Origin: Antedon bifida
Lineage: Eukaryota; Echinodermata; Crinoidea; Comatulida; Antedonidae
NCBI GenBank assembly: GCA_963402885.1
Contig: OY727102.1
Coordinates: 21,018,001 to 21,082,000, forward strand
Direction of reading: 5' to 3'
DNA length: 64,000 nucleotides
Position 1 is the stretch's first letter. Each line of letters starts with the position of its first letter. Shown here one piece after another: positions 47-48,577 of this stretch. Made by a program: the position numbers and the translations under genes. The notes below the pieces were generated by a model. That model did no database searches. It saw only the letters and a program-made list of their open reading frames with translations, and had not been told where the DNA came from.

Positions 47-3000
47 CTTATTTTCATGAAAGTTTAATGTTGCGTTTAACTTAATTAAGTTGTTTTCGAT
101 ATTAAAAACACTGCATGAGAACATCTCCGTAAAATATCGAAATTCATCCTTAGATTGTCTATAAAAAACATTTTTTTAAATTTGTTTAATTATCCATCAA
201 TGTGTCAAAGTAAAAAGTGGCTCAGGCTTTGTTGAGGAAATAAAGTTACAGTTAAAATATTTAAATACAAACATGCAAGACCAGGATTAACTTGTACTTC
301 TACAATATAAATAAGTTTATATTATTGATAACATTTCGTTAAAGATGTATTGTCCCTTGAAACACAAAACAATAAAGGTAAAAATATTCTAAATTTAAAT
401 TGGCCATATCAAAGTAATATTAATTTATTTACTTCAAGTTTACGTAATTAACAGGTAAATTAATTTGATTAAATTTCGTCTGGAAAATCGTCGCGAGCGA
501 AAGTAAACAAAGATTTCAAACCACGAGTATGCATTATGCATGATTTTCGAACTATTATGATACTTCAAAATGACCTACTTTTTTTTGAAACATTTATTTA
601 TTTTTTTTTTGATAGGGATAATACATCTTTAAATCAGTTATTCTTGAATGTTTCAAATATCGGTTTCACCAGTTAAGCAATTTGCGTCTGTTTTGGCAAT
701 TTTTATTCCACAAATTAAATGTATTTTTTCACTTTCCACACTTTTTTTAGTTATAATATGTTTAGAGTTGATAGGTTGAATGCGATGTTTATATTGTGAG
801 AATTAGATTTATCCATTACCATGCTACAATAAGAATACCATTCGTAAACTCATACTATATTATTTATACTCACGAGCCGTCAATAAAAACACTTTCATTC
901 ACAGTTTGGTTCTCAGTAACTTGGTTGTAAGTCCACGAAGCAACTATTAGTAAGTCAACTAAAATACAGCATAATATAATATTTTTTAGGAATTATTTAG
1001 GCACGCGTGTAGGATAATAATCTGCTACAATGTCAGATTCACATGTTCAGATTCTGGATGCACGATCGTCGACCGATTTTAGTCGTCGAAAATCGAAACC
1101 TTCCTATATTAATGCATTTGACAAATGCTCTGTTAACACTATCAAACTAGTTTGACAAAAAAGTGTGATGCGCCTAAATATGGTAGTGATATGCCCAAAT
1201 ATGGTAGTGATATGTCATCATCATGTCCATATATGGGCACATCACATTTGTTGTCACATAAAGTAAACAGAGCTTAAATGTGGTTTATTAGTAACAATAT
1301 ACATTATCGATTTGCGATTTGCAATTAGTTACCTTCATCATTAGTTTGTACTTGAAGAATAAACTCCATGTTACTATTGTCAGGAAGGTTCATTTCACCT
1401 CTTATCAATTCACTACCGTTAGCTTTCTGTACTTTAGCAAGTCCAACTAGAAAAGTGAGAAATGATACATTAATAGCAGCCATAAACATTTTACCACATT
1501 TGAGATTTGATCAAAGATTGAGATTAAAATTAAATTAAAAAACCAAAGCATTTTGAATTCTTTCAGATAGATTATCCATCTACGAGGGCAAGGCGTGAAT
1601 TACACTTTACATTTAAGTCAAATTATTCTTCTTTTTGAAGTAATTTAAAAATCCAAGATAGAATCTCCAGTAATCGAAGGTAAAATAAACGAGAATAAAT
1701 TAAACGTAATTGGGCCTATAGAATATTGTTTCCTTTCCTACAAGTCTAGTTAAATTTACAAATATGTATTTTATACCATAATCTTGCTCTTCAAATACTA
1801 TTTCTCCGCCGACTTCTATGTCTGCTATTTGAGAAAACACTCGACTTTCAAATTCCTTAAAATCATTCACAATTGGGTCCTACAAGAAAACACAGGAGAA
1901 TTAACACTCAACTTCGAATATGTCTTTCACTGTTTAAAGAAACATAAATAAAACAAAGCAATTCTCTCTAAATCTCACACGCACGTTCAGTAATCTAATG
2001 TTCTTCTAGAGTAAATCATTCTGATATTATTGTGCATTTTAAATTCAGCTCATAAACGAGTGAACATACAACCACCGAACGAAAGAGTTTTGGAAAGTTC
2101 TCGTTGAGGATTGAGTCATTCATTTGGTTTTATACAGGAAAGAAATATATTTAAAATGTTGCGTTTCTTTCCATATTTATTTGATACTAACCACAGTAGG
2201 TGTATAACAGTTCAGTTCTGTTTCTTTGTCTTGGCATTCTGTAAAAAGAATCAGATTTAGGTTGTATATATTTAATTCTTATGTTTATAAAATGTATATA
2301 AATGAAGCTTAAATTATGATCTTTAGTAAACAGGAAAATGTAAGTCAAAGAGATGCATTTAACTTTATATTATGTTGTCATGAAACTATTTTCTAGGTAG
2401 TTTAGCAGCTTAAATATCAAATATAGCATACTCTAAATAGAAACACAATCAGTAAATAATTATCACAGTTTATTGTATAGTGTAAGTTAATATTTCATTA
2501 TGCTTTTGAAAAAGTTTATATTTAAAGCCCTATTATAATGAATAAAATAGGCCTACAGTACCTTTACCACCTGTCACTAGCACATCAAAACTACAACTGT
2601 CAATATTATGAGCAGTATCATTAACGGTGCACGTGACAGTTGTTAAACCAACTTCAAATTTCGATTTCTTTCCTGGACGACAAGTAGCCAATAGTCCTTC
2701 GGTATCAACGTTGTCACTAACCACTGGGTCATCCCATGTCACCGTAGTATGACTGGACTCCGCATCAATGTTCATATACTCTGGACACGTTATGTTCGGC
2801 TTTGTATTGTCTGTAAAAAATGAACCAAATTATAATTATAGGGGTTTAATTTAACTTTGTTTGAAGGGGATGTTTCTAATACGCAACCACCATTCCCTGT
2901 ATTATATTGAGTGACATGCTTAATGTATCATTAATTGCTAATTCATTTATTATTATCTTACCTGCAACTAGGACGCCAAAACTACAACTGTCAATATTAT

Positions 3001-6000
3001 CAGAAGTGTCATAAACGGAACAAGTGACATTTGTTAAACCAATTTCAAATTGAGATTCCTTTCCTGGATCACATATAGTCGATTTTCCTTCAATATCAAC
3101 GTTGTCACTAACCACTGGGTCACTCCATGTCACCGTAGTTAGACTGGACTTTGCGTCAACGTCCATAGACTTTGGACACGTTATATTCGGCTTTGTTTTA
3201 TCTACCAAGGAAGGAAAATATGCAAATTCAATCTGCAAGAATTTAATTTTGTTTTCCTCCCTTGTATTTCGTTCAATCCTGTTCGTTCAATTTGTTATTT
3301 ATTTAGCTGCCAATCTTCCTATTTTCTCTTCATCAAAATGTTAAATAATTTATTTTTGTAGCAACATTTAGTGGATATGTTACTTTGTGGTTAACGTGAT
3401 TGCCTTCCTATTCTAAGGTTAATTAAATACAATGATCGATTTTTTCTTACCTGTAACTTGAACAACAAACACACATTTCCCAATATTACCAGCAGTGTCA
3501 TTAACGATGCAGGTGACACTTGTTAAACCAATTCCAAATGTCGATTGGTTTGTTGGACTACAAGTAGCTGAAAGTCCTTTGGTATCAACGTCGTCAGTAA
3601 CCACTGGGTCATCCCATGTCACCGCAGTGAGACGGGATTCAGCATCAATTTGCATCGACTCTGGACACGTTATTTTCGGTTTTGTATTGTCTACAAAGGA
3701 ATACAAATAAGCAAATTTAAGTTTGTTTTTCCTCCTTTGTATCTCGTTCAGTGCCTTAGTTCATAATTATTCATTTGATAATAATTTCATTTATGGTGAA
3801 GGAAAAGGTTACGTTGAAACTTACCCAACGTTCCATGCGTTATCGTAATAATATTTGTTAGAAGGAGATGATTTTTTTTATTTGATCCATTTATAAGCAA
3901 TTATTAATCATGTGTTAATTATCTGGTAATTACGCACATCCGTTTATTGACTGATCGATTTTGTCTTACCTGTAACTCGGACTACAAACATACATGTACC
4001 ATTATTACCAGCAGTGTCATTAACGGTACAAATGACATTTGTTAAACCAATTTCAAACGCAGATTCCTTTCTTGGATCACAAGTAGCCACAAGTCCTTTA
4101 ATATCAACATTGTCACTAACCGGTGGGTCAGTCCATGTCACCGTAGTTAGACTGTACTTTGCATCAACGTACATAGCCTCTGGACAAGTTATATTCGGCT
4201 TTGTTTTGTCTATAAATATTAAGAAAAATAAAAAATAATATTTATAAATGAAAAATAATATTTTTTATTTTTTTTTATATCCACCCGTCTATAAATCCAG
4301 TAATATCAATTTGGTATCAAATGCGAAATTTCTAAATTAATAGAGAAACACGGACAATTTGTCTCCAATAAGAATTTAAAAAAGACTATGAAATATAAAC
4401 CTATAATTGAAGATCAAAGTGGTCTTCAAAAATGTCAGATATGTAGATAGTAATGATGTAGATGTACTGTAGTAATGTAGATATAAAACAGTATTTGATA
4501 GGTTTTCATCCTTTGCATAAAGAAATAGGTCTAGGTTGTTTTTACTAGCGGTATGTCCTTTTTTAAGGTTAAACATTTACAATCTATAATCGGTTTATTT
4601 ATTGGTCAATTTGTTCTTACCTTTAACTAGGACACCGAACCTACAGCTGTCAGTGTTACCAGCAGTGTCATAAACGGTGCACGTGACATTTGTTAAACCA
4701 ATTTCAAATTGTGATTGGTTCTTTGGATCACAAGTAGCTGAAAGTCCTTTAATATCAACATTGTCACTAACCACTAGGTCACTCCATGTCACCGTAGTTA
4801 GATTGGAATTCGCCTTAACTTTCATAAACATTGGACACGTTATATTCGGCTTGATATCATCTATAAAGAAGCATAGGATATGGGTAAGCAAAATTGATTT
4901 GATGGGATTGTTCCTAATACGTACCCAATTCTTAAATTATTTATGCAGGTGTACTTTTTGGCACCTGTGGACCAAATAAAGTGTCCCCTTAATGCGGGTG
5001 TCCCTTATAAGAGTCGACCGTGTAGCGTTAAAATATCCTTTGTTCGTTTCACATTGTGAAAGTGGCAGATGAATTGGGGTGTCCTAAAGAAGAGGTTTTA
5101 CTGTAGTAACATACACACTCTTTTTACTCGCTCACCTCCCACTTTACATGCCTTATTTAATGCATTGTTTAAGCGTGGTTCCCACTAGAACGCAACGCAG
5201 TGACGTATCGACGCAAAGTGCTTTTGCGTAATCACAAGTGGGAACCGACGACGCAATAGTACTGCAAACATCGTATAGCTGGTTAGATTTCACGCAGGAG
5301 GGGGAAAACAAAACTATTGGAAGGGCATTTTTCTTATGTTGCGTAGATTGCGTTACGTTGCGTCGCTAGTGAGAACCAAGCTTTAGATAAATTACCTTTT
5401 ACATTAACGGAAAAATCACATTCTTTAAACCTGCACTTAATTTGAAACATAGGAATCGTACTTGTCGGCGTTGACGGTGATACAACACAAGTAGCTGTAG
5501 CAGTATATTTATGCTTGCTTTTGATGAGATGGTGTTGGTCCCATTTTAACGTGACGTCATTATTCGTATTAATCCGAATATATTGTGGGCAAGTATTGTA
5601 ATGAGTTGAAGCTTTATTAGAATGAAATAAAACTTTATAAGTTAAATCAGGGAAGAGTTTTATCTGATCTGAAGTTTGTGGCTTCGAATCTCATCCGAGA
5701 GCAACTTTGAGACCTTTTTCGCAAGTCTCGTAAATATTAAGTCGATGGCAAATTGCTACTTCATTCAATATCAGCTGTTGCAATTGACAAATGTATACAT
5801 TATTTTATATTTTCAATATAAAAAAAAACAACACTGGATATTATGCATAGGTGGTATATTTAAATTAAATTGATAATTTTCCTTACATACCATCACCATA
5901 GATCAACAGCAAACAGCTACCATTAGACATATATTCATTACAAAATAGTTTAGATAGACCAATGATGTATATATTAGTGATTATGTCATTGATGCCGTTA

Positions 6001-9000
6001 CAGGTAAATATCTCCGATACATCCTCATCCTCATATTTGACTGTAGATGACGTTTTGTTCATATATATAGAGCCCAGATCATGAGGGCAGCTCACATCAG
6101 AGCGGTAAATACCTTAAAATAATAGAAGTATTAGGATCTACTGTACCTGCTTCATGACAACTAACAGGATAAGGTATTACATAGCATGTGACCACTAAAA
6201 TCATGTGCGGAATTAAAAGGTATGTCGTTTTCCACGAGAACAAATTTGATTCTAATTCTTCGAGATGATACTTAATTCAGTATAAACAAGTTAGAACAGT
6301 AGGTTGTTTATAAGACAAATAACAACAATTAAACTCATAAACAGATTATACAAATTAGTTTATTAGTTGAAATTGATCTTGTGTGTCAGTTAGGCCTACT
6401 GTATCAGTTTATCATTTTGTAATTTCTTTTATGGTAAGTATCAATAATAAAATTTTTCTAAAACACAAAATTGACATGTTTGCAAATAGATATCAAAACA
6501 AGGCTTACCATCACTTATTTGGCAATAATCTCCTGTGTAATACGTATCGTAGCAATCACATGTATACAAACTAAAATCGGGATCCATTTCACAAATACCA
6601 CCATTCAGACAATAATTAATTGATGAACATTCTCCTAAAAATATTTTAAATCAATAATTAATTTATTAGATATTCAATTTGTATTAAATTTAACTATGTA
6701 TTTATTATTTTTAAGTATACTAAACACCCCCGTGCATTAAAGTTTCATACATGGAAGTCTTTCTACAGAAATTAGGTAATAAATCTAAAATTATATTTAA
6801 ATAATAATTTATACTTTATTTTAAAGTAATTACGTTCTTGTGGGGCCCCAGACATTTCATGTTATGGTGACTTTGTTGCTTTTGGGGCCCCATGACAGTT
6901 TTGATCGAATAAATAAATAAAATAAAAAATGAAATGAAAATAAATAAAATAAAACAGATCGTTTTTATTTATAAATAAAGTATGAATATGACGTCATACC
7001 GTATATGGGATCTGGACACTTGGTATTTGGAACGCATTTACCACATTGCTGTGTTTGAGTACATGTACTTACGTCTTGGCATGATGCACATGTATCTATA
7101 CACAATAATAACAGTAGTCGAGAATAACAATCATATTTTAATAAGCATTTGTTAACACCAAATCCCTGTATTGCCACCTGCATCATCATCTCTATTACAT
7201 TGTCACACCAAACTTCTCTCCTACCATCATTATCACATCACATTCCATTGTTTCAACACCCAACCTCAACCTACCATAATCCCACACCCAATCTCACCCT
7301 ACCTTAATCCCACACCCACACCCAACCTCACCCTACCATAATCCCACACCCAACCTCACCCTACCATAATCCCACACCAAATCTCACCCTACCCTACTAT
7401 AATCCAAAACCCAATCTCACCCTATCCCACACCCAACCTCACCCTACCATAATCCCACGCCCAATCTCACCCTACTATAATCCTACACCCAACCTCACCC
7501 TACCATAATCCCACACCCAATCTCACCCTACCATAATCACCAAATCTAACGTCACTCCCAGCCTAATAAGAAATCATACATACCGTTACAGAAACTTCCA
7601 TAGAAACCAGTGGCGCATGTGCACGAGAACATATAACCATGTGTTTGGCATGTTCCGCCATTCTTACAAGGCGTTGACATACAGTTTGCTAATTTGTTCA
7701 AATCACAATAATTATTCATAAATCATTAAAATAACCAGAATAAACAACACAGCATTCCTTCAGCATCAGACAACATCGTACGAACATTTCGATACAATTT
7801 AGAATTTATTGCCTTTCATCCTGTTTCTCTTACTGTATTTACATGATTCATTTTAACAGTACCAACAATAACATATTTTAATAATAATTATTAAGTTTGT
7901 ATTATTAGTGTTGCTCAGTAGAAGCCCATAATTAGTTAGTAATAGTACCAGGGAAGAGTGTAATTTCGTAGCTGGCTCATTTGAGTTACTTTGCTTAACC
8001 TGCCCCTGCCCAGCATTTTTTCATCTCTTTTTTTTTAGAAAGAGGCTAGCACCACTGTCAAGCGAAAGCCTACATGAGAGCTGAAGTAAGAAGTATTTAT
8101 ATACATATACAGATTCCTTTTATTATCCAATGTAATGGAAATTACAATGCTCATATCTTGGCCTGCCTTACATAATTATAAAGGAAAAAAAGAACTATCT
8201 AACAAATCTTTATATTGTATTGCTTTTATGCTGGTCGAATAAATAAACGAAACGACAGAATGATACAATGATGTTATTGTTCCTTTTGATCATGACGTCA
8301 TCTACGTAATTTCCTTGTCAAGTAGGTGTACCTCTCTGTTTGATTAACTCAATGATGCTTTGCTTTACCCTACCTCCCCAACCCCCTTCCCCCTTGCTGA
8401 ATTAACTCCATATGCTGGGGACATCAGTATTACTATCATGTTGAATTATTTAGTTTAAGAAAGGAAAAATGTGCACGTACCTAAAGCATGTTGAGTACCG
8501 GTTCCAGAACCATCGTCTGGAGAGTGTAGAGTTCATTAAAAAAAACAATGTACGTTTGTTTAAAATGTGGATTCCATGGTTAATGATTATAAAAAAAGAT
8601 TCATAAAATGCAAGTTATATCTGGTAGCACTGACCGGGATAATAATCAATTAGTTTGACATTTCATAGGAACCGTATGTATTGTCCCTTTGTCAAATTCC
8701 AAAAAAAAAAAAAAAAAAAGATTTCGAAAAAAAAGTGGGTCATTTTGAAGTATCATAATAGTTATTAACTTTCACCAAAAATTAGTGGGAAAAAAAATCA
8801 TTTAACTGAAATACAGACGTTTTTTGGTTCAAAAAATAACTTTGACTTCCAGTCAAAGTTTTCGATCAAAACATATCTCATAATGCAATGTGCTTATTTG
8901 GCTACTCTGTATGCATAATCATAAAACTTCCTCGCGATCTGTGTGAAAACACCTTCTCAACCGTGACGAGTTGTAAACAATCCTAATTAGCATCATGCAT

Positions 9001-10148
9001 AATGTATACTCATGGTTTGAAATCTTTGTTTACTTTTTCAATTTCGATTTTCCAGACGAAATGTTATCAAATTAATTTAGCTGTTAATTACGTAAAATTT
9101 TTGTTTTTGGCTCGAATTTTCGACTTAAAGTGAATAACTTTAATATTACTTTGATATGGCCAATTTAAATTTAGAATATTTTGACCTTCATTTTTTGTGT
9201 TTCAAGGGAAAATACATCTTTAAGGATAATACCACTGCTAAATGTTGAAAAAAATATTCAAATTTTAACACATCGAAGCCAAAATCACAACAATTTTAAA
9301 GCTAACCATAATGAAAAATTATTTTGGTAGGTGAACATTTCTTTCATTTCATTTTATTTCAGTTCATTCAAAAAAGGAGGTAAAAGAAAACAATATTAAC
9401 TGAATGAACTGAGGATAGGCCTAACCCAAGAAAGTTTAAGAAAAAATCTTATTTCGATTGCCTACAATTTTTCTTTTGGTTTTGCGTTGGAAATTTTAGC
9501 AAAAACAAAAAACTTTAAAACAATTAATCCTTTTATATGCCATTGTATACAAAAATGTCTGATTTTGTTGACATGCGTCTGCGCATAGGATACTATGTGA
9601 AATCTAGTCCGGTGAATATTAATTTTCTGAAAACCGAAGTTGACGTCATTGGCGCATTTGGATTTGGTAATATTATTTATTTATTTAACAACACCTTTAA
9701 ACAGGATTACACAATCAGGTAAAAGATTTGTTTTGCATCGTGGTCCTGTCTTAAATACAATAATAATACAATACATTCAAGAAAAAAAATGTTTAGTTTT
9801 GTGGGGGAAAATGTGAGATCGATGCATAGCTTTGAATGAAGCAACTGTTGGGGAATATTTAATTTCAGTTCGTATGTTATTCCGTATTTTTGCGCCTGCA
9901 ACTTTGAACGACGAGTTCATCTTACGAATGGTATTGTAGGGGATTGTTATATTTAGGCGTTCTACTCTACGTGTTAAGTGAGTATGAATATCGGCAATCA
10001 GTAATTAACTAAGAACATCAAGAAACGGAAGTAATTGTTGCTTACCCGTAGCTGAACTATAACTTAAACCCACGCTTGAGCAGCAGCATGAGATGAAACA
10101 ATGTAATGTAATCAAAAGAACAGCAAAAACATTCTCGGTCACATTCAT
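47..10148 (-). CDS. Receptor A: HYR/EGF adhesion GPCR, 5' part (3' exons off the window)
   Basis: Spliced gene read from the reverse strand. Exons in transcript order: 10148-10046, 8516-8481, 7688-7584, 7095-7000, 6634-6509, 6112-5891, 5611-5396, 4860-4621, 4209-3970, 3690-3451, 3201-2962, 2810-2571, 2238-2192, 1879-1777, 1446-1333, 958-874, 158-47. Together they give 855 codons in one frame, and all exons up to the last HYR begin and end in phase 1. Layout: signal peptide (about residues 1-25), EGF (47-81), Cys-rich module (82-113), EGF (114-155), two divergent HYR-like modules (156-301), five HYRs (302-701), then the start of a GAIN domain. The GPS and seven-helix exons must lie to the left. 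By homology to B and C this is a cell-surface adhesion GPCR; the ligand is unknown. The exon at 2810-2571 could instead end at 2562 (in frame, nine bases longer). Confidence 0.88.
339..632. mobile_element. MITE family 3 copy
   Basis: Terminal inverted repeats TTAAAGATGTATTGTCCC and its inverse (GGGATAATACATCTTTAA here). In the intron of receptor A beyond exon 158-47. Confidence 0.8.
1126..1275. mobile_element. MITE family 2 copy
   Basis: Family 2 has termini like CTACACTATCAAACTAGTTT and its inverse, with an interior CCCAAATATGGTAGTGATAT (here two copies) and CCATATATGGGCACATCACA. This copy has an eroded right end (GTAAACAGAGCTTA). Confidence 0.8.
2571..4860 (-). other. Receptor A HYR array, five exons
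   Basis: Exons 4860-4621, 4209-3970, 3690-3451, 3201-2962 and 2810-2571, each 240 bp and in phase 1-1, so any one can be lost or gained without a frame change. Each encodes a HYR (hyalin repeat) domain with KPNITCP or a close variant at the start, TTVTW(D/S)DP, (S/T)DNVD, ATC, GLTNVTC, a DTAGN-type loop and C.F.V.VTG at the end. Two or three N-glycosylation sequons (NIT, NLT, NVT) recur per domain. HYR is an immunoglobulin-like fold thought to act in adhesion. Confidence 0.92.
5169..5385. mobile_element. TTAA-target hairpin MITE (family 1), receptor A intron
   Basis: Bounded by TTAAGCGTGGTTCCCACTAG and its inverse GTGAGAACCAAGCTTTAG. The interior has GCAACGCA/TGCGTTGC arms. It ends about 11 bases from the donor of exon 5611-5396. 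Family 1 has 18-20-bp termini (AAGCTTGGTTCCCACTAG) and TTAA at both edges, as in piggyBac-like elements; no transposase is present. Confidence 0.85.
5396..6112 (-). other. Receptor A divergent HYR-like pair (type alpha then type beta)
   Basis: Exon 6112-5891 (74 residues) carries SCPHDL, a central FTCNG and the signature IIGLSK..C followed by GSCLLLIYG. Exon 5611-5396 (72 residues) carries YNTCP, RINTN, KWDQHH and ends in C.FSVNVKG. Both have the Cys and strand spacing of HYR domains (CP near the start, C in the middle, a final C.F.V.V-like strand) but poor sequence identity to the canonical HYRs next to them. Similar alpha and beta exons occur in receptor B. The labels alpha and beta are mine. 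Confidence 0.7.
6509..7688 (-). other. Receptor A exons: EGF, Cys-rich module, EGF
   Basis: Three phase-1/phase-1 exons. 7688-7584 encodes a textbook EGF domain with six Cys (NGGTC near the second and third, CTCATGFYGSFC at the end). 7095-7000 encodes a 32-residue segment with seven Cys that I cannot assign to a named fold. 6634-6509 encodes a second EGF-like domain (LNGGIC, then TCDCYD and YCQ). EGF modules in extracellular proteins usually mediate protein contacts; no calcium-binding consensus is obvious. Neither B nor C has these exons. Confidence 0.85.
7255..7548. repeat. Pyrimidine-rich minisatellite, about 27-bp unit
   Basis: Imperfect tandem copies of CCCACACCCAACCTCACCCTA followed by CCATAAT, in the intron of receptor A between the Cys-rich exon and the first EGF exon. 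On the gene strand it is purine-rich (GGGTGAGG...). Confidence 0.9.
7690..7920 (-). promoter_or_regulatory. Copy of the receptor 5' flank inside intron 2 of receptor A
   Basis: Sequence just upstream of the EGF exon resembles the 5' flanks of the receptor genes: ATCGTACGAACATTTCGATA at about 7774-7793, then CCTGTTTCTCTTACTGT, and TTAAGTTTGTATTATTAGTG, in the same order and at similar spacing as near 31330-31507. No signal-peptide exon accompanies it; the only ATG-led reading frames nearby are very short. Confidence 0.45.
8668..9223. mobile_element. MITE family 3 copy, long variant
   Basis: Eroded left end (GTATGTATTGTCCC) and right end GGGAAAATACATCTTTAA. The interior includes TCATGCATAATG...CATGGTTTGAAATCTTTG, shared with the copy at 339-632 in inverse orientation. 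In intron 1 of receptor A. Confidence 0.75.
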
Positions 10149-10210
10149 TTTTACTTCTAAGTAAATTTTTAATAATCAGAATGGATAACACTGCAGTTTA
10201 ACTTCGGTGT

Positions 10211-10244
10211 ACAAGTGCATCCTACGAACATTTCGATAAAATGA
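10211..10244 (-). promoter_or_regulatory. Conserved upstream block of receptor A
   Basis: A block reading ACAAGTGCATCCTACGAACA on the plus strand, then ending AAAATGA, 63 bp upstream of the ATG. The same block lies 67 bp upstream in B and 113 bp upstream in C. It contains CACTTG, an E-box, on the gene strand. Conservation across genes whose coding modules differ suggests a core promoter or 5' UTR element. Confidence 0.5.
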
Positions 10245-32047: not shown

Positions 32048-32085
32048 TGGGCAGAGTGAAAATTACAAAGTAATATCACTCTGCC
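32048..32085. other. Conserved hairpin upstream of receptor B
   Basis: Inverted repeat GGGCAGAGTGA / TCACTCTGCCC (11 bp, perfect) with a loop containing a second small inverted repeat (ATTAC/GTAAT). It lies about 790 bp upstream of the ATG. A copy with an 8-bp stem (GGGCAGAG / CTCTGCCC) lies at 48986-49022, about 410 bp upstream of receptor C. Confidence 0.6.
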
Positions 32086-33648: not shown

Positions 33649-34126
33649 TTAAACAGTATGGGACATTGTCATAGTGTTAGCCGGTGAGGACACTCGGTTT
33701 TTGTTACGTTTCTGAAAGCATTCCTTTACCTGAAAAGAAACGGTATAACCTTATAAGTGACGTACAGAAACGCAAAGTTACAAGGCGCTGTTTGGGACAT
33801 TTTTTAAATTACGCGGTGGCGTCGTTTTGGACATTTTTAGTTGCGTGCAAAGGCGACTCTGCTCACTATATCGGTCGGTCGGTCGGTCGGTCGGTAAACA
33901 CTAACTCAAATTTGGGCACGCGACTGCAGCCATGTGTATGGCCTTGTTAATTACGCAGCGCCCTTTTGTTCATTTTTAATTTTGCCAACAAAATACCGTT
34001 TGGTAAGATAGAATACTTTTTGGGCAAGATAAATATATTTGTTCACACAATTTATTCTGTCTTCAGAAAACGTTATTATGTTAACAAAGTACATATATGA
34101 GGGCAAATGCATTGGAGGATGTATAA

Positions 34127-34197
<71 letters not shown>

Positions 34198-37100: not shown

Positions 37101-40100
37101 GGGGCTATAGGATATAACAATGTTAACACGGTAGATACAAATTCTCGACAACTTACGTAGGCCTATATCACTCTCAAGGGGCTATAGGATATAACAATTG
37201 TTAAAAACGTCTAAACAAAACATTACAGTACTTGAGTTAAATATACCAATATACCGCGTGTAAACTTTTCTCATATTATTCTAGCCTACAATACAAAATA
37301 TGTACCAGATTCTCAGTGCTGTATCTCCACATACGACAACTTTTTTACCAAATATCATAGAAGCATTCAGCATCACATGTGTACCACACGGTGTGTGTAT
37401 CATGTAGGATTAGGCTAAGGGTTAATTAAGGTCTATCATACCAGGAGGTACATGTGAAACACATGTGATGCTGTTTTACCAAATATTTCTATGATACTGA
37501 AATCTAGATACAGTACCGAGAACCATTAATAGTGCAAACGGTACCAAATAAAAGCGGATAATCGAGATCAAAAGAAGTGAAATTTAATTATTTCAATACC
37601 TCTGGTGAATTGCTAATCTTCATAAATACACCAAAGCTGGTGATATGATCCGAAGAGCAATTTATTCTGTCATTGGTATTGTAAGTTGTCATACCTCTAT
37701 CACTCCAACCCCTATAATATTCCATAAAATATAAATGTGATGAAGAACAGACGCACTTTTAAAAATATAAAAATGTTATTTGTCCTCAAGCTTAACTTGT
37801 GGAGTGGAGCATGTGCACTAACTTATCTTCTTATACTCTTTTTAAGGAAGTAACTGGTTGGAACTGGTGGCCTCTACTAGACATTCCTTGAAAGGATTTT
37901 GCTTCATTATATTAGGTAAGAGTTAGATTAATCTCTCAAATAATTGGATTCATGAGACTAATTTTTGCACACAAAAACTCTCACCGTTTTTTTTCATCGT
38001 AAAATAGGCAAATTGTCTGTCTGTCGATTTCGGTCAGCAATGTCTAAAATAGTTAAAGTAGAATCAGAAGTTTAAGCATATCACCTGAAGTAACTCCAAC
38101 TTTACCTACAGTAACCTTCTATATATAATAATATCCTTGATTTATATAGCGCCTAATGTTGTGAAACCTCTAAGCGCTGTTTTACCCCGGTCATTTTTTG
38201 GATCAAACACGTATGGAAATATACTCCCATGATGCAGCTAGTAATCAGCGCAAAGTTGTGTCTTGATCTAACCGGTTCCCATTTATACACCTGGGTGGAG
38301 AGAGGCTAACGTAAGTAAAGTATCTTGCCTAAGGATATGTAAGGTAATGTCAGGAGAGGATTTCATATGGGATGAAGGTTGCTGCCAGAAAACGTAATAC
38401 TGTACAATGTTTTGTCGGGTAGGCTAATTAGCACCCTTACACGTAAGGGCTGTGAATGATATATCCCTAACATATATATCACTTAAGCTTGGTTCCCACT
38501 AGATACGCAACGTAAGAAAATGTCCTTCCAATAATTGTGTTTGCCCCCGCCTGCGTGAAATCAAACCCGATGTTTGTATGCACTGTTGCGTCGTCGGTTC
38601 CCACTAAAGCGTGGTTTCCACTAGCGACGCAACGCAGGGACGTAACGCAACGCAAGTGAATTGACCAATCACAAGCGATGGCTTATTCGCTTGTGATTGC
38701 TAACTGTCTATAACTTCGCTTGCCAATGGTTAAAACGCTTGCGTTGCTTTTACGTCCTTGCGTTACGTTCTAGTGGGAACCAAGCTTAATTGTGATTACG
38801 CAATACAGCAATACGTCGTTGCGTTGCGTTCTAGTGGGAACCACGCTTAAGCGTGGTTCCCACTAGCGACGCAACGCAAGGACGTAACGCAACGCAAGTG
38901 AATTGACCAATCACAAGCGATGGCTTATTCGCTTGTGATTGCTAACTGTCTATAACTTCGCTTGTCATTGGTTAAAACGCTTGCGTTGCGTTTACGTCCT
39001 TGCGTTGCGTCGCTAGTGGGAACCACGCTTTAACAATTTACCTTATTTTCATGAAAGTTTAATGACGCCTTTAATTTCATTAAATTGTTTCCAATATCAT
39101 AAACACTGCATGAGAACATCTCCGTCAAATAGCGAAATTCAGCCGTGTCTTCTTTCCTAAATAATCATGAATAAAACATATTTATTTGTTGACGATATAG
39201 GTATACTTAAACAGTCAATGTAAAGTGTATTTATAAGGTTTAAACTATATAACAGATTTACATTATCATTAATAATAATATCAATAATATCATCCATAAT
39301 CTTTCTAAATTAAAAACAATAAACATTTAAGAAGTTATAAATTATATTCTGAAAGAATGTTTAAAGTTTTGCATTAAATAATAGAGTAAGTTTTCTCTGT
39401 TTTAATATAGATAATATATATATGTATATCATATTTAAAACTAGATAAATACAGAAGCCACGATGCCCTAAGCGTGGTTCCCATGGACTAGAACGCAACG
39501 CAGCGACGTATTGACGCACAGGTTTGATTTCAGGCGAGGGCAAACACAATTATTAGAAGGGCATACACAATTATTAGAAGGGCATTTGCTTGCGTTACGT
39601 AGATTGCGTTACATTGCGTCGCTAGTGAGAACCACGCCTTATTAATACAAAACCAACAACTCACAATTCATTAATATAAACGGTTTCGTTTACAGTCTTG
39701 TTTTTGGTAATTTGGTTATAACTCCATGTTGCAATAACAAGTAAGTCAACTAAAGTGCAAAAAAAATAAAATACAATATTCTTCCATCTTTACGCAAATC
39801 CGCAGATTTTTATTATAATATTTTAATTAATTAATTTTTTAATTTAATACAAATCATGTTACAGTCAAGATATAAATAATAATAATAGGCCTATATTGTA
39901 TATTAATGAAAACATTTTCTTCTGGCTACTATTATCACACTCAATGAACCATCATATCAATATATTGTATATATTTTTCTTTAAGCAAATTTGAATGATC
40001 TCGCCTAATGAACACTTTCAGGTTTGAAATACAGATTTTTTAATAGGTTTATATAGCACTCGTAGCCTCGTACATTTTGATGTCACTTATTTTCATGCAG

Positions 40101-43100
40101 ATAGACGCCAATGTTTAACAGAGCAGATAAATATGACAATGATATTTTAGAGTTATACTTACCTTCTTTATTGCTTCGTATTTGAAGAGTAAACTCCATG
40201 TTACTTTCATTATAAAGGTTCATTTCACCTCTTATCAATTCACTACCATTAGCTTTCTGTACTTTGGCAAGTCCAACTAGAAAAGTGAGAAATAACAAAT
40301 AGTCACACTTATCACCACTAGTTTTGCAGAAATTAGTTACTCTATTTCGAAGTACAATGAGTATAGAGTGGGCCTATAAGGGGTCGAGGTACAAGGAGTC
40401 GATTAGGCCCAGTGGGCCTATTGGTTCATATCCATCTCGAGGTACAAGGAGTCGATTAGGACCAGTGGGCCTATTGGTTCATATCCATCTCGAGGTACAA
40501 GGAGTCGATTAGGGCCAGTGGGCCTATAATTGGTTCATATCCATCTCGAGGTACAAGGAGTAGATTAGGCCCAGTGAGCCTATAATTGGTTCATATCCAT
40601 CTCGAGGTACAAGGAGTAGATTAGGCTCAGTGAGCCTATAATTGGTTCATATCCATCTCGAGGTACAAGGAGTCGATTAGGCCCAGTGGGCCTATAATTG
40701 GTTCATATCCATCTCGAGGTACAATCTCAGTTACTAGCAAACATTTTTGAAAGAAATTGTTTTGCTAGTAAGAGGAAATTAAACTTTCAACAATCTATTA
40801 TTTTCTCATTGTTAAAACATTCAAAGTGGATACTATTAACGTAATTACTAAAGATCTGTTTACACTATCAAACTAGTTTGACAAAAAAATGTAATGTGCC
40901 CAAATATGGTAATGATATTCCCAAATATGGTAGTGATATGACACCATCATTTCCATATATGGGCACATCACATGTTTGATGTCACATAAAGTTTGATAGT
41001 GTATACAACTTAGTAATAGTATATAAAAATTCCTCACCATAATCTTGTTCTCCAAATACTAGTTCTTTGTTAACTTTTATGTCTTCTAGTTGAGAAAACA
41101 CCTGCATTTCAAACTCCTTGAAATCATTCACAATTGGGTTCTAAAAGAAAACAAACCAGAATTTACACACATTAAATGTATCGCTAGTCACCTTGGAAGT
41201 GTTGTCATTTTTAATGCTATTTTGTCTACAGAATAACAATTTTGTGTTTTTTTATTTAATAAAACATTTTTGTTTCGACAGTCATACAGAACGCAAATGT
41301 GTGCCTGATGAATGAATCAATTTTGAAAATGATGAATTTATTATTTTTTTAAAAACTTGCAATATCGTATATGTCGCAAACGACATGAGAATTGCATCCT
41401 AAATGCATTGTATGATTATAGGCTAATAAATAGGCTTTTAAGCTTGGTTCCCACTAGATACGCAACGTAAGCAAATGCCCTTCTAAAGCGTGGTTCCCAC
41501 TAGCGACGCAACGCAAGGACGTAACGCAACGCAAGTGAATTGACCAATCACAAGCGATGGCTTATTCGCTTGTGATTGCTAACTGTCTATAACTTCGCTT
41601 GTCATTGGTTAAAACGCTTGCGTTGCGTTTACGTCCTTGCGTTACGTTCTAGTGGGAACCAAGCTTAAGTGATTTGACCAATTACAAGCGATGGATTATT
41701 CGAACAGTGGTTTCATTGGTCAACTCGCTTGCGTTGCGAGTTCGTCCTTTCGTTGCGTCTCTAGTGGGAACCACGCTTTAATGCTTGGTTCCCACTAGAG
41801 ACGCAACACAAGGACGTAACGCAACGTAAGTGAATTGACCAATCCGAACTGTCGCTTGTCATTGGTTAACACGCTTGCGTTGCGTTTACGTCCTTGCGTT
41901 ACGTTCTAGTGGGAACCAAGCTTAAGGGCGATTACGCGTACATACTCGAATACTAACCTCAGTAGTAGGATCTGAACAGCTAAATCCAGTTGTTTCGTCT
42001 GTACATTCTGTAATGACTAATAACAGGTTTAATTATTTAGCCGTGAATATTGGTTAAAATCACACACTTTTTAGGTAGGTCATCCGATATTCCTTTTCGT
42101 ACATAAGTTGGGGACCCCTCATAAAACGTCACAAAATGAACATGAAAAATCATTATCCATATCCATAAGGTGTGACGTAAGAATTGCGCTAACTACAATT
42201 CGAAAATACAAACGCTTTTTGTCGAGCCGTCTGTGTAGTCGAGTGGATTAGACTAGCATGTCGATGTAGGGGTTCGAATCCCATGAGCAACTTCTTTTTA
42301 TATTATAGTGAGAGAGAGATAATTCAGAGGGTTAGGTTTAGTTATCTTTCACATAAGAGGTCCCCAACTTATGTTTAGGTTTAGTTATCTTTCACATAAG
42401 AGGTACCCAACTTATGTACGAAAAAAAAATCGGATCCGGGTAAATTACTGAGCCTGACCGATTCCATAGAGATAGATTATGCGATTATTATTTCGTTTCT
42501 AGAAGTAACATACAATTAACAAAACATAGTAATAATATTGCTAAAAATAAAAATAAGTAATTGCGAGAAGTACTCAAATATATAAATAATTGTAATCATA
42601 TAGGTCTTACCTGTAACATTGACACCAAACATACATGTACCATTATTACCAGCAGTGTCATTAACGGTACACGTAACATTTGTTAAACCAATTTGAAAAA
42701 GAGATTCATTTCCTGGACTACAAGTAGCCAATAGTCCGTCGGTATCAACGTTGTCAGTAACCACTGGGTCATCCCATGTCACCGTAGTTAGATTATACCA
42801 TGCCTTGACTTGCATAGACTCTGGACACGTTATATTCGGCTTTGTATTGTCTGAGTTTAATACAAGCAAGTTATATTTTAGTATAAACTAAATGTTAACT
42901 CACACTCTCCAACAATCACTTTTCATTTATTTAGGCCTAGGCCTATATCCCATCCGTTCACAATTTCTTATATGTTAATTGTCTGTTAATAAATGTATAG
43001 CATAAATAATACACGTATTTAGCATAAATGTCCATTAATTTGAACAATATAGTTTATTGTTCAATATTTACTTGCCTGTTACTATGACATCAAACATACA

Positions 43101-46100
43101 GCTGTCATTATTACCAGCAGTGTCATTAACGGTACAAGTAACATTTGTTAAACCAATTATAAACGGAGATTTATTTCTTGGGCTACAGGTAGCTCGTCGT
43201 TCAATAGCAACGTTGTCAGTAACCACTGGGTCACTCCATGTCACCGTAGTTTGACTGGAATTCGCATCAACGTCCATAGACTTTGGACAAGTTATATTCG
43301 GCTTTGTATTGTCTATAAATAGTAGGAATCAATTAAGTAAATGATGCCAGTAAGGTAATTTGATTTGTACTGTATTACCAGTGACAGTGTTATTTATTTA
43401 CGCATCAGTGTATCGAATCTTGATTCTTCAAGATGTATATATATGCCCTACCTCATTTATTTAAATGTGTTTTTTTTTTATAGGTAAATGATTCAATGGT
43501 ATATGCATTATACGGCCATTCATTTCTTCATCAATTTATTCGAACTCTCATCCTGTATTAATTCGTCAACTCAATCATTTATATTACATGCAATACAATC
43601 TACATTGTATTTCTTACCTGTAACGTTGACACCAAACATACAAGTGTCATTATTACCAGCAGTGTCATTAACGGTACAAGTGACATTTGTTAAACCAATT
43701 TTAAACGGAGATTTATTTCTTGGACTACAGGTAGCTCGTCGTTCAATAGCAACGTTGTCAGTAACCACTGGGTCACTCCATGTCACCGTAGTTTGACTGG
43801 AATTCGCATCAACGTCCATAGACTTTGGACAAGTTATATTCGGCTTTGTATTGTCTATAAATAGTAGGAATCAATTAAGTAAATGATGCCAGTAAGGTAA
43901 TTTGATTTGTACTGTATTACCAGTGACAGTGTTATTTATTTACCCATCAGTGTATCGAATCTTGATTCTTCAAGATGTATATATATGCCCTACCTCATTT
44001 ATTTAAATGTGTTTTTTTTTATAGGTAAATGATTCAATGGTATATGCATTATACGGCCATTCATTTCTTCATCAATTTATTCGAACTCTCATCCTGTATT
44101 AATTCGTCAACTCAATCATTTATATTACATGCAATACAATCTACATTGTATTTCTTACCTGTAACGTTGACACCAAACATACAAGTGTCATTATTACCAG
44201 CAGTGTCATAAACGGTACAAGTGACATTTGTTAAACCAATTTCAAACGGAGATTCCCTTCCTGGACTACAAGTAGCTCGCGTTTCAACAGCAACGTTGTC
44301 ACTAACCACTGGGTCATCCCATGTCACCGTAGTTAAACTGGAATTCGCTTTAACTTTCATAAACTCTGGACACGTTATATTCGGCTTGATATCATCTATA
44401 AATAGTAGGAATCAATTATGTAAATGATGCCAGTAAGGTAATTTGATTTGTACTATATTACCAGTGACAGTGTTATTTATTTACGCATCAGTGTATCGAA
44501 TAATTTTGATTCTTCAAGATCTATATAGGCCCTACCTCATTTATTTAAAATGTGTTTTTTATCCACAATGGTATATGCAATATATGGCCATTCATTTCTT
44601 CATCAATTTATTCGAACTCTCATCCTGTATTAATTCGTCAACTCAATCATTTATATTACATGCAATCTACATTGTATTTCTTACCTGTAACGTTGACAAC
44701 AAACATACAACTGCCATTATTACCAGCAGTGTCATAAACGGTACAAGTGACATTTGTTAAACCAATTTCAAATTGTGATTGGTTTCTTGGACTACACGTA
44801 GCCAATAGTCCTTTTATATCAATGTTGTCAGCTCTATTTTTCAAAATGTTCTTAGCTCCGCCCCAACCATGATGGTGGAGACTTAATTTCATATTTCAAT
44901 AAATAAATGCAATTTCCGGGGACCTAGCAGCTCTATTTTTCAAAATTGTCTAAGCTCAGTCCCAACCATGGTAGGCCGGAGGTTCTGGTAAGTCTTATAT
45001 ATGTTTCATATAATTTTAAATCATGTAAAGTGCCATTTTCTGGGAGACCCAGCAGCTCTATTTTTCAAAATTTCTGTCCAGAATATATGAATAGCTGTTA
45101 TGTCTTCATACATTGTCGATTAATTTTAATAATAATATTTGTTTATTAATCGATCGTTACTCTTACCTGTAACTCGAATATAAAACATACAAGTGTCATG
45201 ATTACCAGCAGTGTCATTAACGGTACAAGTGACATTTGTTAAACCAATTTCAAATTGTGATTTGTTCTGTGGATCACAAGTAGCTGAAAGTCCTTTTATA
45301 TCAACGTTGTCAGTAACCATTGGGTCAACCCATGTCACCGTAGTTAGATTGGACTCCGCATCAATGTTCATATACTCTGGACACGTTATGTTCGGTTTTG
45401 TATTGTCTGAGTTTGAAATAAAATTAAGCAGTAAAAACCAAATAGAATAAATTAGTTTATTCGTTAAATCACACACTCAACCAATCACTTTTCATTTATT
45501 TATCTAATAGGGTGAGTGCTGCCAGCAGATCATGGACATATTCCTACGAATCTCCTCAAACAAGTATACTTGAAGATAGAGAAGAGGGAGTTGCAATATG
45601 TGACTGGCTGGATGAGGTGAGGTACAGCATTCTAGCAGCTCCATTTTTCAAAATGTCCTTAGCTCCGCCCCAACCATGATGGGGCTGAGGCCCTGGTAAG
45701 TATTATGTTTCGTATAATTTCAAATCATGTATAGTGCCATTTTCCGGAGACAAGCAGCTCTATTTTTCAAAATTGTCTTAGCTCATATCAGTCCCAACCA
45801 CGGTAAGCCTGAGGTCCTGGTGAGTCTTATATAGTTTGTTTCATATAATTTTAAATCATGTTAAGTACCATTTTCTGGAGAGCTGGCAGCTCTATTTTTC
45901 AAAATTGCTGTCCAGAATATATGCATAGCTGTTATGTCTTCATACATTGTCGATTAATTTTAATAATAATATTTGTTTATTAATCGATTGTTACTCTTAC
46001 CTGCAACTCGAATATAAAACATACAAGTGTCATGATTACCAGCAGTGTCATTAACGGTACAAGTGACATTTGTTAAACCAATTTCAAATTGTGATTGGTT

Positions 46101-48577
46101 CTTAGGATCACAAGTAGCTGAAAGTCCTTCGGTATCAACGTTGTCAGTAACCATTGGGTCATCCCATGTCACCGTAGTTAGATTGGACTCCGCATCAATG
46201 TTCATATACTCTGGACACGTTATGTTCGGTTTTGTATTGTCTGAGTTTGAAATAAAATTAAGCAGTAAAAACTAAATAGAATAAATTAGTTTATTCGTTA
46301 AATCACACACTCAACCAATCACTTTTCATTTATTTATCTAATAGGGTGAGTGCTGCCAGCAAATCATGGACATATTCCTACGAATCTCCTCAAACAAGTA
46401 TACTTGAAGATTGAGGGGAGAGATTTGCAATCTGTGTCTGGCTGGATGAGGTGGGGTACAGCATTCTAGCAGCTCCATTTTTTAAAATGTCCTTAGCTCC
46501 GCCTCGACCATGATGGGGCTGAGGTCCTGGTAAGTATTATGTTTCATATAATTTCAAATCGTGTGTAGTGCCATTTTCCGGAGACCAGCAGCTCTATTTT
46601 TCAAAATTGTCTTAGCTCATATCAGTCCCAACCACGGTTGGCCTGAGGTCCTGGTGAGTCTTATATAGTTTGTTTCATATAATTTTAAATCATGTTAAGT
46701 ACCATTTTCTGGAGAGCTGGCAGCTCTATTTTTCAAAATTGCTGTCCAGAATATATGCATAGCTGTTATGTCTTCATACATTGTCGATTAATTTTAATAA
46801 TAATATTTGTTTATTAATCGATCGTTACTCTTACCTGTAACTCGGATATAAAACATACAAGTGTCATGATTACCAGCAGTGTCTTTAACGGTGCACGTGA
46901 CATTTGTTAAACCAATTTCAAATTGTGATTGGTTCTTAGGATCACAAGTAGCTGAAAGTCCTTCGGTATCAACGTTGTCAGTAACCATTGGGTCATCCCA
47001 TGTCACCGTAGTTAGATTGGCCTTCGCATCAACGTCCATAAACTCTGGACAAGTTATATTCGGCTTTGTATTGTCTATAAATAGTAGGAATCAATTAAGT
47101 AAATGATGCTAGTAAGCTAATTTGATTTGTACAGTATTACCAGTGACAGTGTTATTTATCTACCCATCAGTGTATCGAATCTTGATTCTTCAAGATCTAT
47201 ATAGACCCTACCTCATTTACTTAAAATGTGTTTTCTTTATAAGGAAATCCACAATGGTACAGAATATGCAATATATGGCCATTCATTTCTTCGTCAATGT
47301 ATTCGAACTCCCATCCTGTATTATTTCGTCAACTCAATCATTTACATTACATGCAACCTACATTCTATTTCTTACCTTTAACTAGGACATAAAACATACA
47401 TGGACCATTATTACCAGCAGTGTCTTTAACGGTACAAGTGACATTTGTTAAACCAATTTCAAATTGTGATTGGTTCTTTGGATCACAAGTAGCTAAATGT
47501 CCTTCGGTATCAACGTTGTCAGTAACCACTAGGTCACTCCATGTCACCGTAGCTTTAGAGGACTTGGCATCAATTTCCATAGAGGCTGGACAAGTTATGT
47601 TCGGCTTTGTATTGTCTACAGTAACAGAATATTAGTTATTCACCGGTCAATATATTAAATCTCATGTAAGTACTACCTTATTGATTTATTTGTTTATTAA
47701 ATATTTTGGTTTTCTGTATTTAGGAAAATAGCAAAACCTTTTAATATAAGAACCGATTCAGCCATAATGTATAGGCCTATAATGTACATTCTTTCGTTAC
47801 TTTGAAATGCACTTATTATACTTCGAAATAAGAACTGATATAATATAATATAATAACGTTTAAAAAATTAACAGAATATTAATTAAACAATCTTTGAACT
47901 TGCTCTTTACAGACAGATGGCAGTTGTTGTTTTAATATACATAATATATTTCTTTATAAATAATTAATTAAGTATAAATGTGGATGGTGGTCAAAATAAG
48001 TCTAAAAATAGACTTTAGGCAGAGACAACAATTTACAAAATAGAAAAACATTAGGCCTACATTGAGGTTACAGTACAATGATTAATTTGAAAAATAAATA
48101 AAAAAAGCTAGTGAATCTAATTTCTATTATTTACCTGTTACTGTTGAAATACTTGTATCTTGACTCCCTGAAACAATTGAAGAAATGACAACTTTATAAC
48201 AAATAAAACCAATATTTATGCCTATGACTACAGCATTTTTTAAAAATATGATTGATATTGGCCTACAGTCTCCAAATCTCTTATTTTGTTTTTCATTGTA
48301 CTTTGATATATTTATTTTTAAGTATTCAGGACCAAAGAAAATTTTAAAAAGTTTTTCTACTGTATCTTAAATTGTTTAATTCTAAACAATTATAATGGTA
48401 TCTGAATTGTTGTTAAAAAGACTGATTAATTCGTAATCCATTGTCTCCTTTCTGCTTTTACTAGAACCGCAGAACGACAACATAAATTAGAAATAGAAAC
48501 AACATACCTGAGCCATTTTTTCCATTGCAATAACATGCAACGAAAAGAACCAAAATTGGATATATCCTCACATTCAT
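33649..48577 (-). CDS. Receptor C: HYR-only adhesion GPCR, complete
   Basis: Twenty-four exons, 3489 bp, 1162 codons plus stop, phases consistent. Exons: 48577-48508, 48167-48135, eight HYRs (47615-47376, 47074-46835, 46240-46001, 45406-45167, 44395-44159, 43854-43618, 43312-43076, 42850-42611), 42007-41958, 41140-41038, 40276-40163, 39749-39665, 39156-39042, 38043-37985, 37711-37600, 37027-36927, 36568-36463, 35921-35698, 35045-34985, 34897-34797, 34369-34207, 33729-33649. Signal peptide MNVRIYPILVLFVACYCNG differs from B by one residue. The 11-codon second exon (GSQDTSISTVT) takes the place of the SRCR and alpha/beta modules of B. Predicted GPS cut is between Ile870 and Thr871. Tail ends MTMSHTV as in B. 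Paralogue of B by tandem duplication; likely an adhesion receptor of the same class with a different ectodomain. Confidence 0.93.
34129..34191. repeat. (TA)n microsatellite
   Basis: About 30 TA units in the last intron of receptor C, starting some 15 bases from the TM7-exon donor at 34206. The same intron in B has only a few TA steps (about 12127-12142). Confidence 0.95.
35405..35663 (+). mobile_element. Probable retroelement 3' end in receptor C intron
   Basis: Segment ending AAATGATACTTGACTTGACT, a short tandem tail typical of some non-LTR elements. Absent from the matching intron of B. Confidence 0.45.
36240..36353. mobile_element. MITE family 2 copy
   Basis: Both ends present (TCTACACTATCAAACTAG, GATAGTGTGGACAGAGCTTT), one internal unit and a shortened middle. 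Confidence 0.8.
37027..37191. repeat. 77-bp tandem triplication over the TM1 acceptor of receptor C
   Basis: The first part of the TM1 exon and its acceptor (CCTATAG on the gene strand) occur three times at exactly 77-bp spacing, with exon starts at 37027, 37104 and 37181. Only the innermost copy is followed by the full exon. The two outer copies are closer to receptor B in sequence (GAGAGTGATATAG) than the innermost one (AAGAGTAATAAAG). Each copy includes a perfect internal donor-like GTAAGT. Confidence 0.9.
38140..38352. repeat. Dispersed repeat in receptor C GAIN intron
   Basis: Paralogous counterpart of 16017-16215, with the same TATATAGCGCCTAATGTT core. Confidence 0.5.
38483..39033. mobile_element. 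Compound TTAA hairpin MITE insertion (family 1)
   Basis: Several family 1 copies, some nested, flanked by TTAA at both outer edges (38483-38486 and 39030-39033). The interior has the perfect palindrome AATCACAAGCGA / TCGCTTGTGATT. Receptor B shows the unoccupied site ATCATTAACAATTTACC at about 16704-16720. The insertion ends nine bases from the donor of GAIN exon 39156-39042. Confidence 0.9.
39469..39638. mobile_element. Hairpin MITE copy (family 1)
   Basis: Termini AAGCGTGGTTCCCATGGACT and GCGTCGCTAGTGAGAACCAC; internal direct repeat of CACAATTATTAGAAGGGCAT. Absent from the matching intron of B, which instead carries an unrelated insertion at about 17170-17305. Confidence 0.8.
40375..40735. 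repeat. Minisatellite, 53-56 bp unit, about 6-7 copies
   Basis: Tandem copies containing GAGGTACAAGGAGTCGATTA and GGTTCATATCCATCTC in a GAIN-domain intron of receptor C. Receptor B lacks it at the matching place, so it arose after the duplication or was lost from B. Confidence 0.92.
40851..41008. mobile_element. MITE family 2 copy
   Basis: Counterpart of the copy at 17994-18176 (same intron of the paralogue), with two internal 21-bp units instead of three; the right end runs to within about 30 bases of the GAIN exon 41140-41038. Confidence 0.85.
41438..41925. mobile_element. Cluster of TTAA hairpin MITEs (family 1)
   Basis: Outer TTAA edges at 41438 and 41922. Contains a fragment, a full copy (about 41485-41668) and two further copies resembling the last two of the cluster in B. 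Lies about 33 bases from GAIN exon 42007-41958 of receptor C. Partly inherited with the gene duplication, then altered. Confidence 0.85.
42100..42420. mobile_element. TIR element with an internal tRNA-like segment (receptor C)
   Basis: Paralogous copy of the element at 19372-19664. A-box 42236-42246, B-box 42271-42281. Its right terminus is duplicated in tandem (ends near 42376 and 42420). Confidence 0.75.
44685..44831 (-). pseudogene. Truncated HYR exon remnant in receptor C
   Basis: The 3' two-thirds of a HYR exon survive (DNIDIKGLLATCS... to ..VVNVTG with an intact GT donor below 44685), but the N-terminal third with the CP motif and the usual splice acceptor are missing. At about 44831 the homology stops and intron-type repeat (GCTCTATTTTTCAAAATGT) begins. 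A makeshift AG at 44833-44832 would give a 147-bp in-frame exon, but it lacks a pyrimidine tract. Most likely skipped. Confidence 0.75.
45167..47074 (-). repeat. 834-bp HYR exon-plus-intron tandem units
   Basis: HYR exon 3' edges at 45167, 46001 and 46835 are spaced exactly 834 bp. The intervening introns, including the GCTCTATTTTTCAAAAT repeats and the TGCTGCCAGCA segment, match over nearly their whole length, so the unit of duplication is exon plus intron. Confidence 0.88.

Follow-up and report, generated by a model that had tools for sequence, protein, structure and literature searches.

A tandem array of three HYR-bearing adhesion GPCR genes with a common core and differing heads in the crinoid Antedon bifida

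Three tandem genes occupy the minus strand of a 64,000-nucleotide stretch of the Antedon bifida genome (C15:21018001-21082000; contig OY727102.1, assembly GCA_963402885.1), referred to here as the window, and are transcribed in the order C, B, A. The genome searched comprises 315.6 Mb in 27 contigs. Its mitochondrial genes follow the echinoderm code: ND1 has AAA at four positions where Asn is conserved, which also speaks against a tunicate origin, COX1 requires TGA to be read as Trp, and COX1 and a COX2-like frame are open under table 9. COX1 lies on the strand opposite to ND1, which would suggest the gene order of Asteroidea. Gene models were obtained by finding conserved exons through three-locus comparison, reading the splice sites and then assembling the exons; 40 kb to the left of the window were included, and gene A ends 4.0 kb into that region (Table 1). 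In each gene the signal exon comes first (by inspection), a short tail exon comes last and the frame closes without internal stops. Donors are GT or GC in all three genes, with GC at three modelled head exons (B HYR-like 3, B HYR5 and C HYR7). The lists of N-terminal modules contain the recognisable exons; extra small exons may have escaped. With their flanks, the signal-exon regions of B and C are 88% identical over 288 columns, those of A and B 68% over 150, and those of A and C 68% over 93.

A fourth copy was not found in the array: a TM3-4 probe has three neighbouring matches on C15, and its one other match on that contig is 0.5 Mb away, with 30% identity. In a tblastn search with B (E 1e-3), the 40 kb left of the window yielded only exons of A, and no match was obtained between 48.6 and 64 kb.

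Table 1. Exons and features of the three genes, with HYR-bearing loci of the same core group elsewhere; positions are those of the window unless a contig is named
Feature	Span	Exons	Strand	Details and basis
Gene C	48577..33649		-	1151 residues; spliced model
Gene C signal-peptide exon	48508..48577		-	ATG at 48577, phase 0-1; alignment to B
Gene C, 8 HYR exons	42611..47615	47615-47376, 47074-46835, 46240-46001, 45406-45167, 44395-44159, 43854-43618, 43312-43076, 42850-42611	-	all phase 1-1; model and Pfam
Gene C HYR remnant, 5' half missing, outside model	44679..44830		-	locus comparison
Gene C linker, g1-g5, GPS	37600..42007	42007-41958, 41140-41038, 40276-40163, 39749-39665, 39156-39042, 38043-37985, 37711-37600	-	model; Pfam GPS 4.9e-8
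Gene C seven-helix and tail exons	33649..37027	37027-36927, 36568-36463, 35921-35698, 35045-34985, 34897-34797, 34369-34207, 33729-33649 with stop	-	model; Pfam 7tm_2 3.9e-43
Gene B	31259..11654		-	1480 residues; spliced model
Gene B signal-peptide exon	31184..31259		-	model and alignment
Gene B HYR-like 1-3	N-terminal block 25851..30792	30792-30544, 29623-29414, 28869-28654	-	phase 1-1; model
Gene B SRCR		28257-27946	-	phase 1-1; Pfam SRCR 1.8e-21
Gene B HYR-like 4-5		27013-26783, 26081-25851	-	phase 1-1; model
Gene B, 6 HYR exons	19851..22829	22829-22590, 22293-22054, 21757-21518, 21080-20841, 20522-20286, 20090-19851	-	model; Pfam on first; alignment
Gene B linker, g1-g5, GPS exons	15386..19272		-	model
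Gene B seven-helix and tail exons	11654..14990		-	stop at 11654; model
Gene A	10148 to -3977 (C15:21014023)		-	1181 residues; spliced model
Gene A signal-peptide exon	10046..10148		-	model and alignment
Gene A N-terminal modules	5396..7688	EGF 7688-7584, Cys-rich 7095-7000, EGF 6634-6509, HYR-like 6112-5891 and 5611-5396	-	all phase 1-1; Pfam EGF 8e-06, 2 stretches
Gene A, 5 HYR exons	2568..4860	4860-4621, 4209-3970, 3690-3451, 3201-2962, 2810-2568	-	model and Pfam
Gene A linker and g1-g4	47..2238	2238-2192, 1879-1777, 1446-1333, 958-874, 158-47	-	model
Gene A g5, GPS, seven helices, tail	C15:21014023-21017743, left of window		-	model
L038	C9:1.99 Mb			HYR 1.5e-8, PAN 9.3e-11 (Pfam)
L042	C9:7.64 Mb			HYR 7.3e-6, C-type lectin 7e-5 (Pfam)
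L043	C9:about 6.05 Mb			HYR 2.1e-7 (Pfam)

The genes share a core of 14 exons (linker, g1-g5, GPS, TM1, TM2, TM3-4, TM5a, TM5b, TM6-7 and tail). Start and end phases are identical in A, B and C at all 14; lengths are equal at nine, and the other five differ by multiples of 3. Pfam, which covered the cores of A and C, identifies a secretin/adhesion-type seven-helix domain (7tm_2, E 5.6e-41 in A and lower still in C), and the core of B is 96% identical to that of C over TM1-TM4. The best solved relatives of the core are ADGRL3 (8e-42), ADGRD1 (2.5e-39) and ADGRL2 (1.1e-36), and the ADGRL3 alignment spans the GPS into the helices. The GPS itself is recognised by Pfam in C; that of A gives no Pfam match at E 0.1, and its exon aligns with those of B and C. 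Read from the models, independently of Pfam, the cleavage tripeptide His-Ile-Thr (HIT) stands before TM1 in all three genes, in keeping with the rule His-Leu/Ile-Ser/Thr given in the accessible text of a 2026 review of adhesion GPCRs (PMC13197933). A genome-wide search for the GPS family had made A, B and C appear to have no GPS, an appearance that the spliced models corrected: the search passes over them because their GPS sequences are divergent and each is spread over two exons. On the seven-helix domain and the GPS tripeptide before TM1, A, B and C are assigned to the adhesion GPCRs (class B2).

The initial annotation had proposed just such an array, of three same-strand tandem HYR-bearing adhesion GPCRs with a common signal exon, a HYR array and phase-matched GAIN exons, and the spliced models, the alignment of the signal regions and the Pfam matches to HYR and 7tm_2 bear it out. 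Its end points, 48577 and 47, are the ATG of gene C and the last base of gene A's g4 exon inside the window. The seven-helix exons that it saw in B and C, and expected for A outside the window, lie 1.2-4.0 kb to the left in A, together with the tail.

The region before the helices is less typical. Pfam finds no GAIN family in C or A, and the exons from linker to GPS give only 206-208 aligned codons, where a full GAIN domain has about 320 residues (PMC13197933, accessible text); this length would fit GAIN subdomain B with a short subdomain A. According to the same review, two conserved disulfides anchor the GPS near the motif CxCxHL|T. With the cysteine positions placed by the ADGRL3 alignment, A, B and C keep cysteines 1 and 3 and carry Met for cysteine 2 and Ser for cysteine 4; the full motif with both disulfides, which is not essential to membership among adhesion GPCRs, is thus absent from all three. 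In the GPS, cysteine 2 pairs with cysteine 4. Given this pairing, one disulfide would have been lost, and cleavage may be impaired, since the cysteines of one highly conserved GPS bridge are missing.

B and C form a recent pair, with dS of about 0.09 in the seven-helix part and 0.07 in the GAIN part; gene A, at dS 0.22-0.54 from both, is older. In the seven-helix part, each of the three pairs shows a bias against amino-acid replacement (p 7e-4, 5e-4 and 6e-7), the first of these values being the Fisher test for B-C, with dN 0.026 and dS 0.088. In the GAIN part the bias is found in two of three pairs, B-C being not significant (dN/dS 0.54, p 0.14). Overall, five of the six pairwise core tests show the bias, and the core is under purifying selection.

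This bears on whether one or more copies, C above all, could be decaying non-functional duplicates. Gene C is without the HYR-like heads common to A and B and holds a truncated HYR, and the 5' part of its TM1 exon is tandemly repeated together with the acceptor (36977-37204, 77-base period, 2.9 copies), which creates decoy acceptors. Against decay, all three reading frames are open with GT or GC donors, and the B-C differences in the seven-helix part have the bias just described; we regard decay as very improbable. Three open spliced frames, matching splice phases and the seven-helix bias against amino-acid change confirm that these are real genes beyond chance.

The heads of the three genes differ. 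The repeat of hyalin, an extracellular protein of echinoderms, is HYR, and the head of C consists of eight such domains. In B the order is three HYR-like modules, an SRCR domain, two HYR-like modules and six HYR; in A it is EGF, a Cys-rich module, EGF, two HYR-like modules and five HYR. At a Pfam cut-off of 21.7 bits, HYR is matched in C with E 3e-93 (306.7 bits, 8 stretches) and in A with 1.6e-55 (185.8 bits, 5 stretches); in B the first HYR alone was scanned (4.5e-14, 53 bits), and with B4 as the reference the aligned domains B2, B3, B5 and B6 are 82%, 75%, 67% and 77% identical. In A, B and C alike, all head module exons in the models are in phase 1-1, so that heads can be lost, gained or multiplied without disturbance of the core.

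The HYR exons and the GAIN/7TM exons could in principle belong to separate genes, one for a secreted hyalin-like protein and the next for a GPCR with a short ectodomain. The intron between the last HYR exon and the linker exon measures 0.33-0.60 kb, which leaves some room for such a split. However, phase 1 is shared by the end of the last HYR exon and the start of the conserved linker exon; in the linker frame there is no Met between the upstream stop and the linker exon in A, B or C; and the same order of HYR and core recurs in A, B, C and the paralogous L038, L042 and L043. The genomic association of HYR with GPS described below points the same way, and we hold separate genes to be hardly credible.

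The HYR-like modules form two groups. The first (three modules of B and one of A) is related to HYR, with a profile match of 96%; for the second (two of B and one of A) the match is 34%; B modules 1, 4 and 5, scanned singly, gave no Pfam match. Both HYR-like modules of A have counterparts among the five of B, with ambiguous pairing. Homology between B and C covers the signal exon, stops, and restarts at the first HYR. Since A and B share the HYR-like modules and C is nearer to B, C most simply would have lost them. In a tree of 19 HYR domains, in which 11 of 16 inner branches are open, the bootstrap is unsettled and gene labels cluster weakly, the local duplication B2-B3 is well supported, C2-C4 less so, and some B/C pairs appear. 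In gene C the HYR remnant is joined to a repeat-like stretch, further copies of which occur in other HYR introns of B and C.

Position-matched HYR domains of B and C have dN/dS of about 0.4-0.6, compared with 0.54 for the GAIN part; they do not evolve clearly faster than the core, and the ratio is not above 1. Because matched domains evolve about like the GAIN part, head variability is mostly module gain and loss. Across the whole HYR, pN/pS is 0.71; within codons 9-32 pN exceeds pS, but pS is low there and the pairs are non-independent, so we do not claim positive selection on HYR.

With the TM3-4 exon as a probe, 34 places were found in the genome, three of them A, B and C. The query began with about 17 intron residues, and most distant matches start at query positions 6-19. 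An unrooted tree (65 columns) was built from 19 of the 34 places, namely A, B, C and 16 loci, leaving out L020 and 14 places without a locus. Twelve loci fall on one side of a branch with moderate support (85/95; present in 86% of bootstrap trees), and we call these the core group. Five of the 12 TM3-4 loci lie within C9:7.64-7.71 Mb. As to L020 (C1:22511691-22511819), it matches the TM3-4 exon at 90% identity over 42 residues and is probably a dispersed fragment.

Heads were examined for eight of the 12 group members, in models or in one 10 kb stretch each, and HYR was found in six: A, B, C and the three further loci in Table 1. L040 (C9:6.02 Mb) has a C-type lectin domain (8.6e-8) and no HYR within the 10 kb read; L039 (C16) likewise has no HYR within the 10 kb read, and two of its modules were scanned, neither scoring above the Pfam cut-off. 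At L043, positions 1374-7236, the HYR block is duplicated in tandem over about 3.1 kb, with nearly identical copies. A single core group within this genome thus bears HYR, SRCR, EGF, PAN and C-type lectin heads. Nine of the 12 members have a readable GPS; all nine carry other residues in place of cysteines 2 and 4 and retain cysteine 3 and His-Ile/Leu-Thr. Outside the core group, the GPS read with the same pattern keeps CxC at L011, L012, L031, L041 and L044 (5/5); of the seven tree members outside the group, two have a readable GPS, L031, and L044 together with the 7TM of L022.

The picture of a constant core with a variable ectodomain therefore holds for the array, with three module sets in three genes, and extends to the PAN and C-type lectin heads on the same core group. 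That the family is expanding is borne out by the core group, with its cluster on C9, but not by the array itself, which has only three members. The earlier interpretation thus stands in part, for the HYR-bearing array and its constant core; a role in recognition is a prediction, and diversifying selection on the ectodomain finds no counterpart in the HYR dN/dS values.

An alternative is ordinary gene birth and death among structural adhesion proteins, serving cell-matrix contacts as hyalin does, with neutral drift behind the differences in the heads. The occurrence of the repeat in hyalin, the matched HYR dN/dS values, the local HYR duplications (B2-B3 and, less surely, C2-C4) and the broken remnant in C are all consistent with it. 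However, a single core with SRCR, EGF, PAN and C-type lectin heads exceeds what repeat drift would give, and the excess of pN in codons 9-32 argues, subject to the low pS and non-independent pairs noted above, in the same direction; on balance we think this alternative rather unlikely.

HYR heads are not confined to the core group. When the 150 scored HYR matches out of 1376 candidates were compared with all 122 listed GPS places, a HYR of this set was found within 15 kb upstream on the same strand at 12 of the 122, with none downstream and none on the opposite strand; at 25 kb the counts are 12 upstream, one downstream and none on the opposite strand. HYR next to GPS is therefore frequent in this genome. 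A 7TM match follows in at least six of the 12 places (36 of 155 7TM matches were used, picked by eye); because GPS is also found outside adhesion GPCRs, the 12 need not all be such receptors. At L041 (C9:29.64 Mb), a HYR array is followed by GPS and a seven-helix exon, the same order as in A, B and C; its core and its GPS differ from theirs, the GPS keeping CxC and the core being ADGRG-like (best match ADGRG4, 5.5e-17 on an 89-residue fragment) and 26% identical to A, B and C. HYR heads thus occur on at least two distant cores. At C16:5.96-6.27 Mb and C7:4.64-4.77 Mb there are two more large clusters of GPS and 7TM places with high GPS scores, and these have no listed HYR within 25 kb upstream.

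Among known receptors, ADGRL, ADGRD1 and ADGRE resemble A, B and C in seven-helix and GPS sequence and in the tripeptide His-Ile/Leu|Thr. Relative to ADGRL, the three genes differ in their HYR, SRCR and EGF heads, in the replacement of GPS cysteines 2 and 4 and in a short tail. The heads of ADGRL (latrophilin) are rhamnose-binding lectin, olfactomedin and HRM, and Pfam finds none of these in A, in C or in the scanned N-terminal part of B. HYR arrays like those of A, B and C are found in the surface recognition and adhesion proteins EBR1/EBR1_5 and hyalin. EBR1_5, of the sea urchin egg bindin receptor family, is described as having seven HYR, with positive selection confined to three, and a SEA and a transmembrane domain (PMC5521101, accessible text) where A, B and C have a GPS/7TM core instead; EBR1_5 gives HYR domains a precedent in recognition.

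The accessible part of a choanoflagellate GPCR paper in eLife (PMC12716839) argues that domain shuffling has shaped adhesion GPCRs and states that heads usually go with the type of 7TM in choanoflagellates and, citing others, in metazoans. The terms 'HYR domain' and 'hyalin repeat' are absent from its main text and may occur in its other parts; the accessible text of the 2026 review (PMC13197933) makes no mention of HYR, nor does that of a Ciona survey, which names LRR and EGF heads (PMC2396169). In a survey of sea cucumber GPCRs, 50 of 56 and 38 of 39 adhesion receptors are given as unclassified (PMC7042368, accessible text). Open-access titles and the starts of abstracts contain no account of HYR-bearing echinoderm adhesion GPCRs among the matches listed; an earlier mention may exist, for example in the subscription literature, which includes sea urchin genome studies of 2006.

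Taking these points together, we consider it probable that A, B and C are echinoderm adhesion GPCR paralogues belonging to a lineage-expanded, tethered-agonist family that has diversified by module swapping. The head, HYR with or without SRCR or EGF, would bind an extracellular or cell-surface ligand; the GAIN region would transmit binding or force; the strand that follows His-Ile|Thr (TSFGVFMKIS...) would act as a tethered agonist on the seven helices, which would signal via a G protein. The array and the core group would exploit phase freedom, combining one signalling part with diverging recognition heads. Ligand binding, self-cleavage, tethered agonism and G-protein coupling are predictions from sequence, as would be any immune, gamete or cell-adhesion role.

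A more far-reaching proposal, which we put forward tentatively, is that an echinoderm clade of adhesion GPCRs with a one-disulfide GPS might form a diversified system for recognising microbes, self or gametes. Through tandem genes and the shuffling of phase 1-1 exons, a single tethered-agonist core would have come to carry HYR, SRCR, PAN, EGF and C-type lectin heads, and the missing disulfide would tune head release. If so, the family would stand beside expanded innate receptor families as their GPCR-based counterpart. Since one core group bears many heads and HYR sits on two distant cores, echinoderms offer a natural test of head exchange in adhesion GPCRs with signalling kept. Likewise, the loss of GPS cysteines 2 and 4 together provides a natural experiment on whether the bridge is needed for self-cleavage and head release.

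Two further features of the window were noted. Plus-strand open frames lie beside the array at 56732-62089, and the longest of them is rich in Ser, Thr and Pro. Pfam scans of five of these frames gave no match at 0.01. Most of the intron between the last HYR-like exon of gene B and its first HYR is taken up by a 41-base minisatellite (23000-25544, about 62 copies, 94% matches), which is open in several frames, for up to 897 codons, and is a trap for ORF-based annotation.
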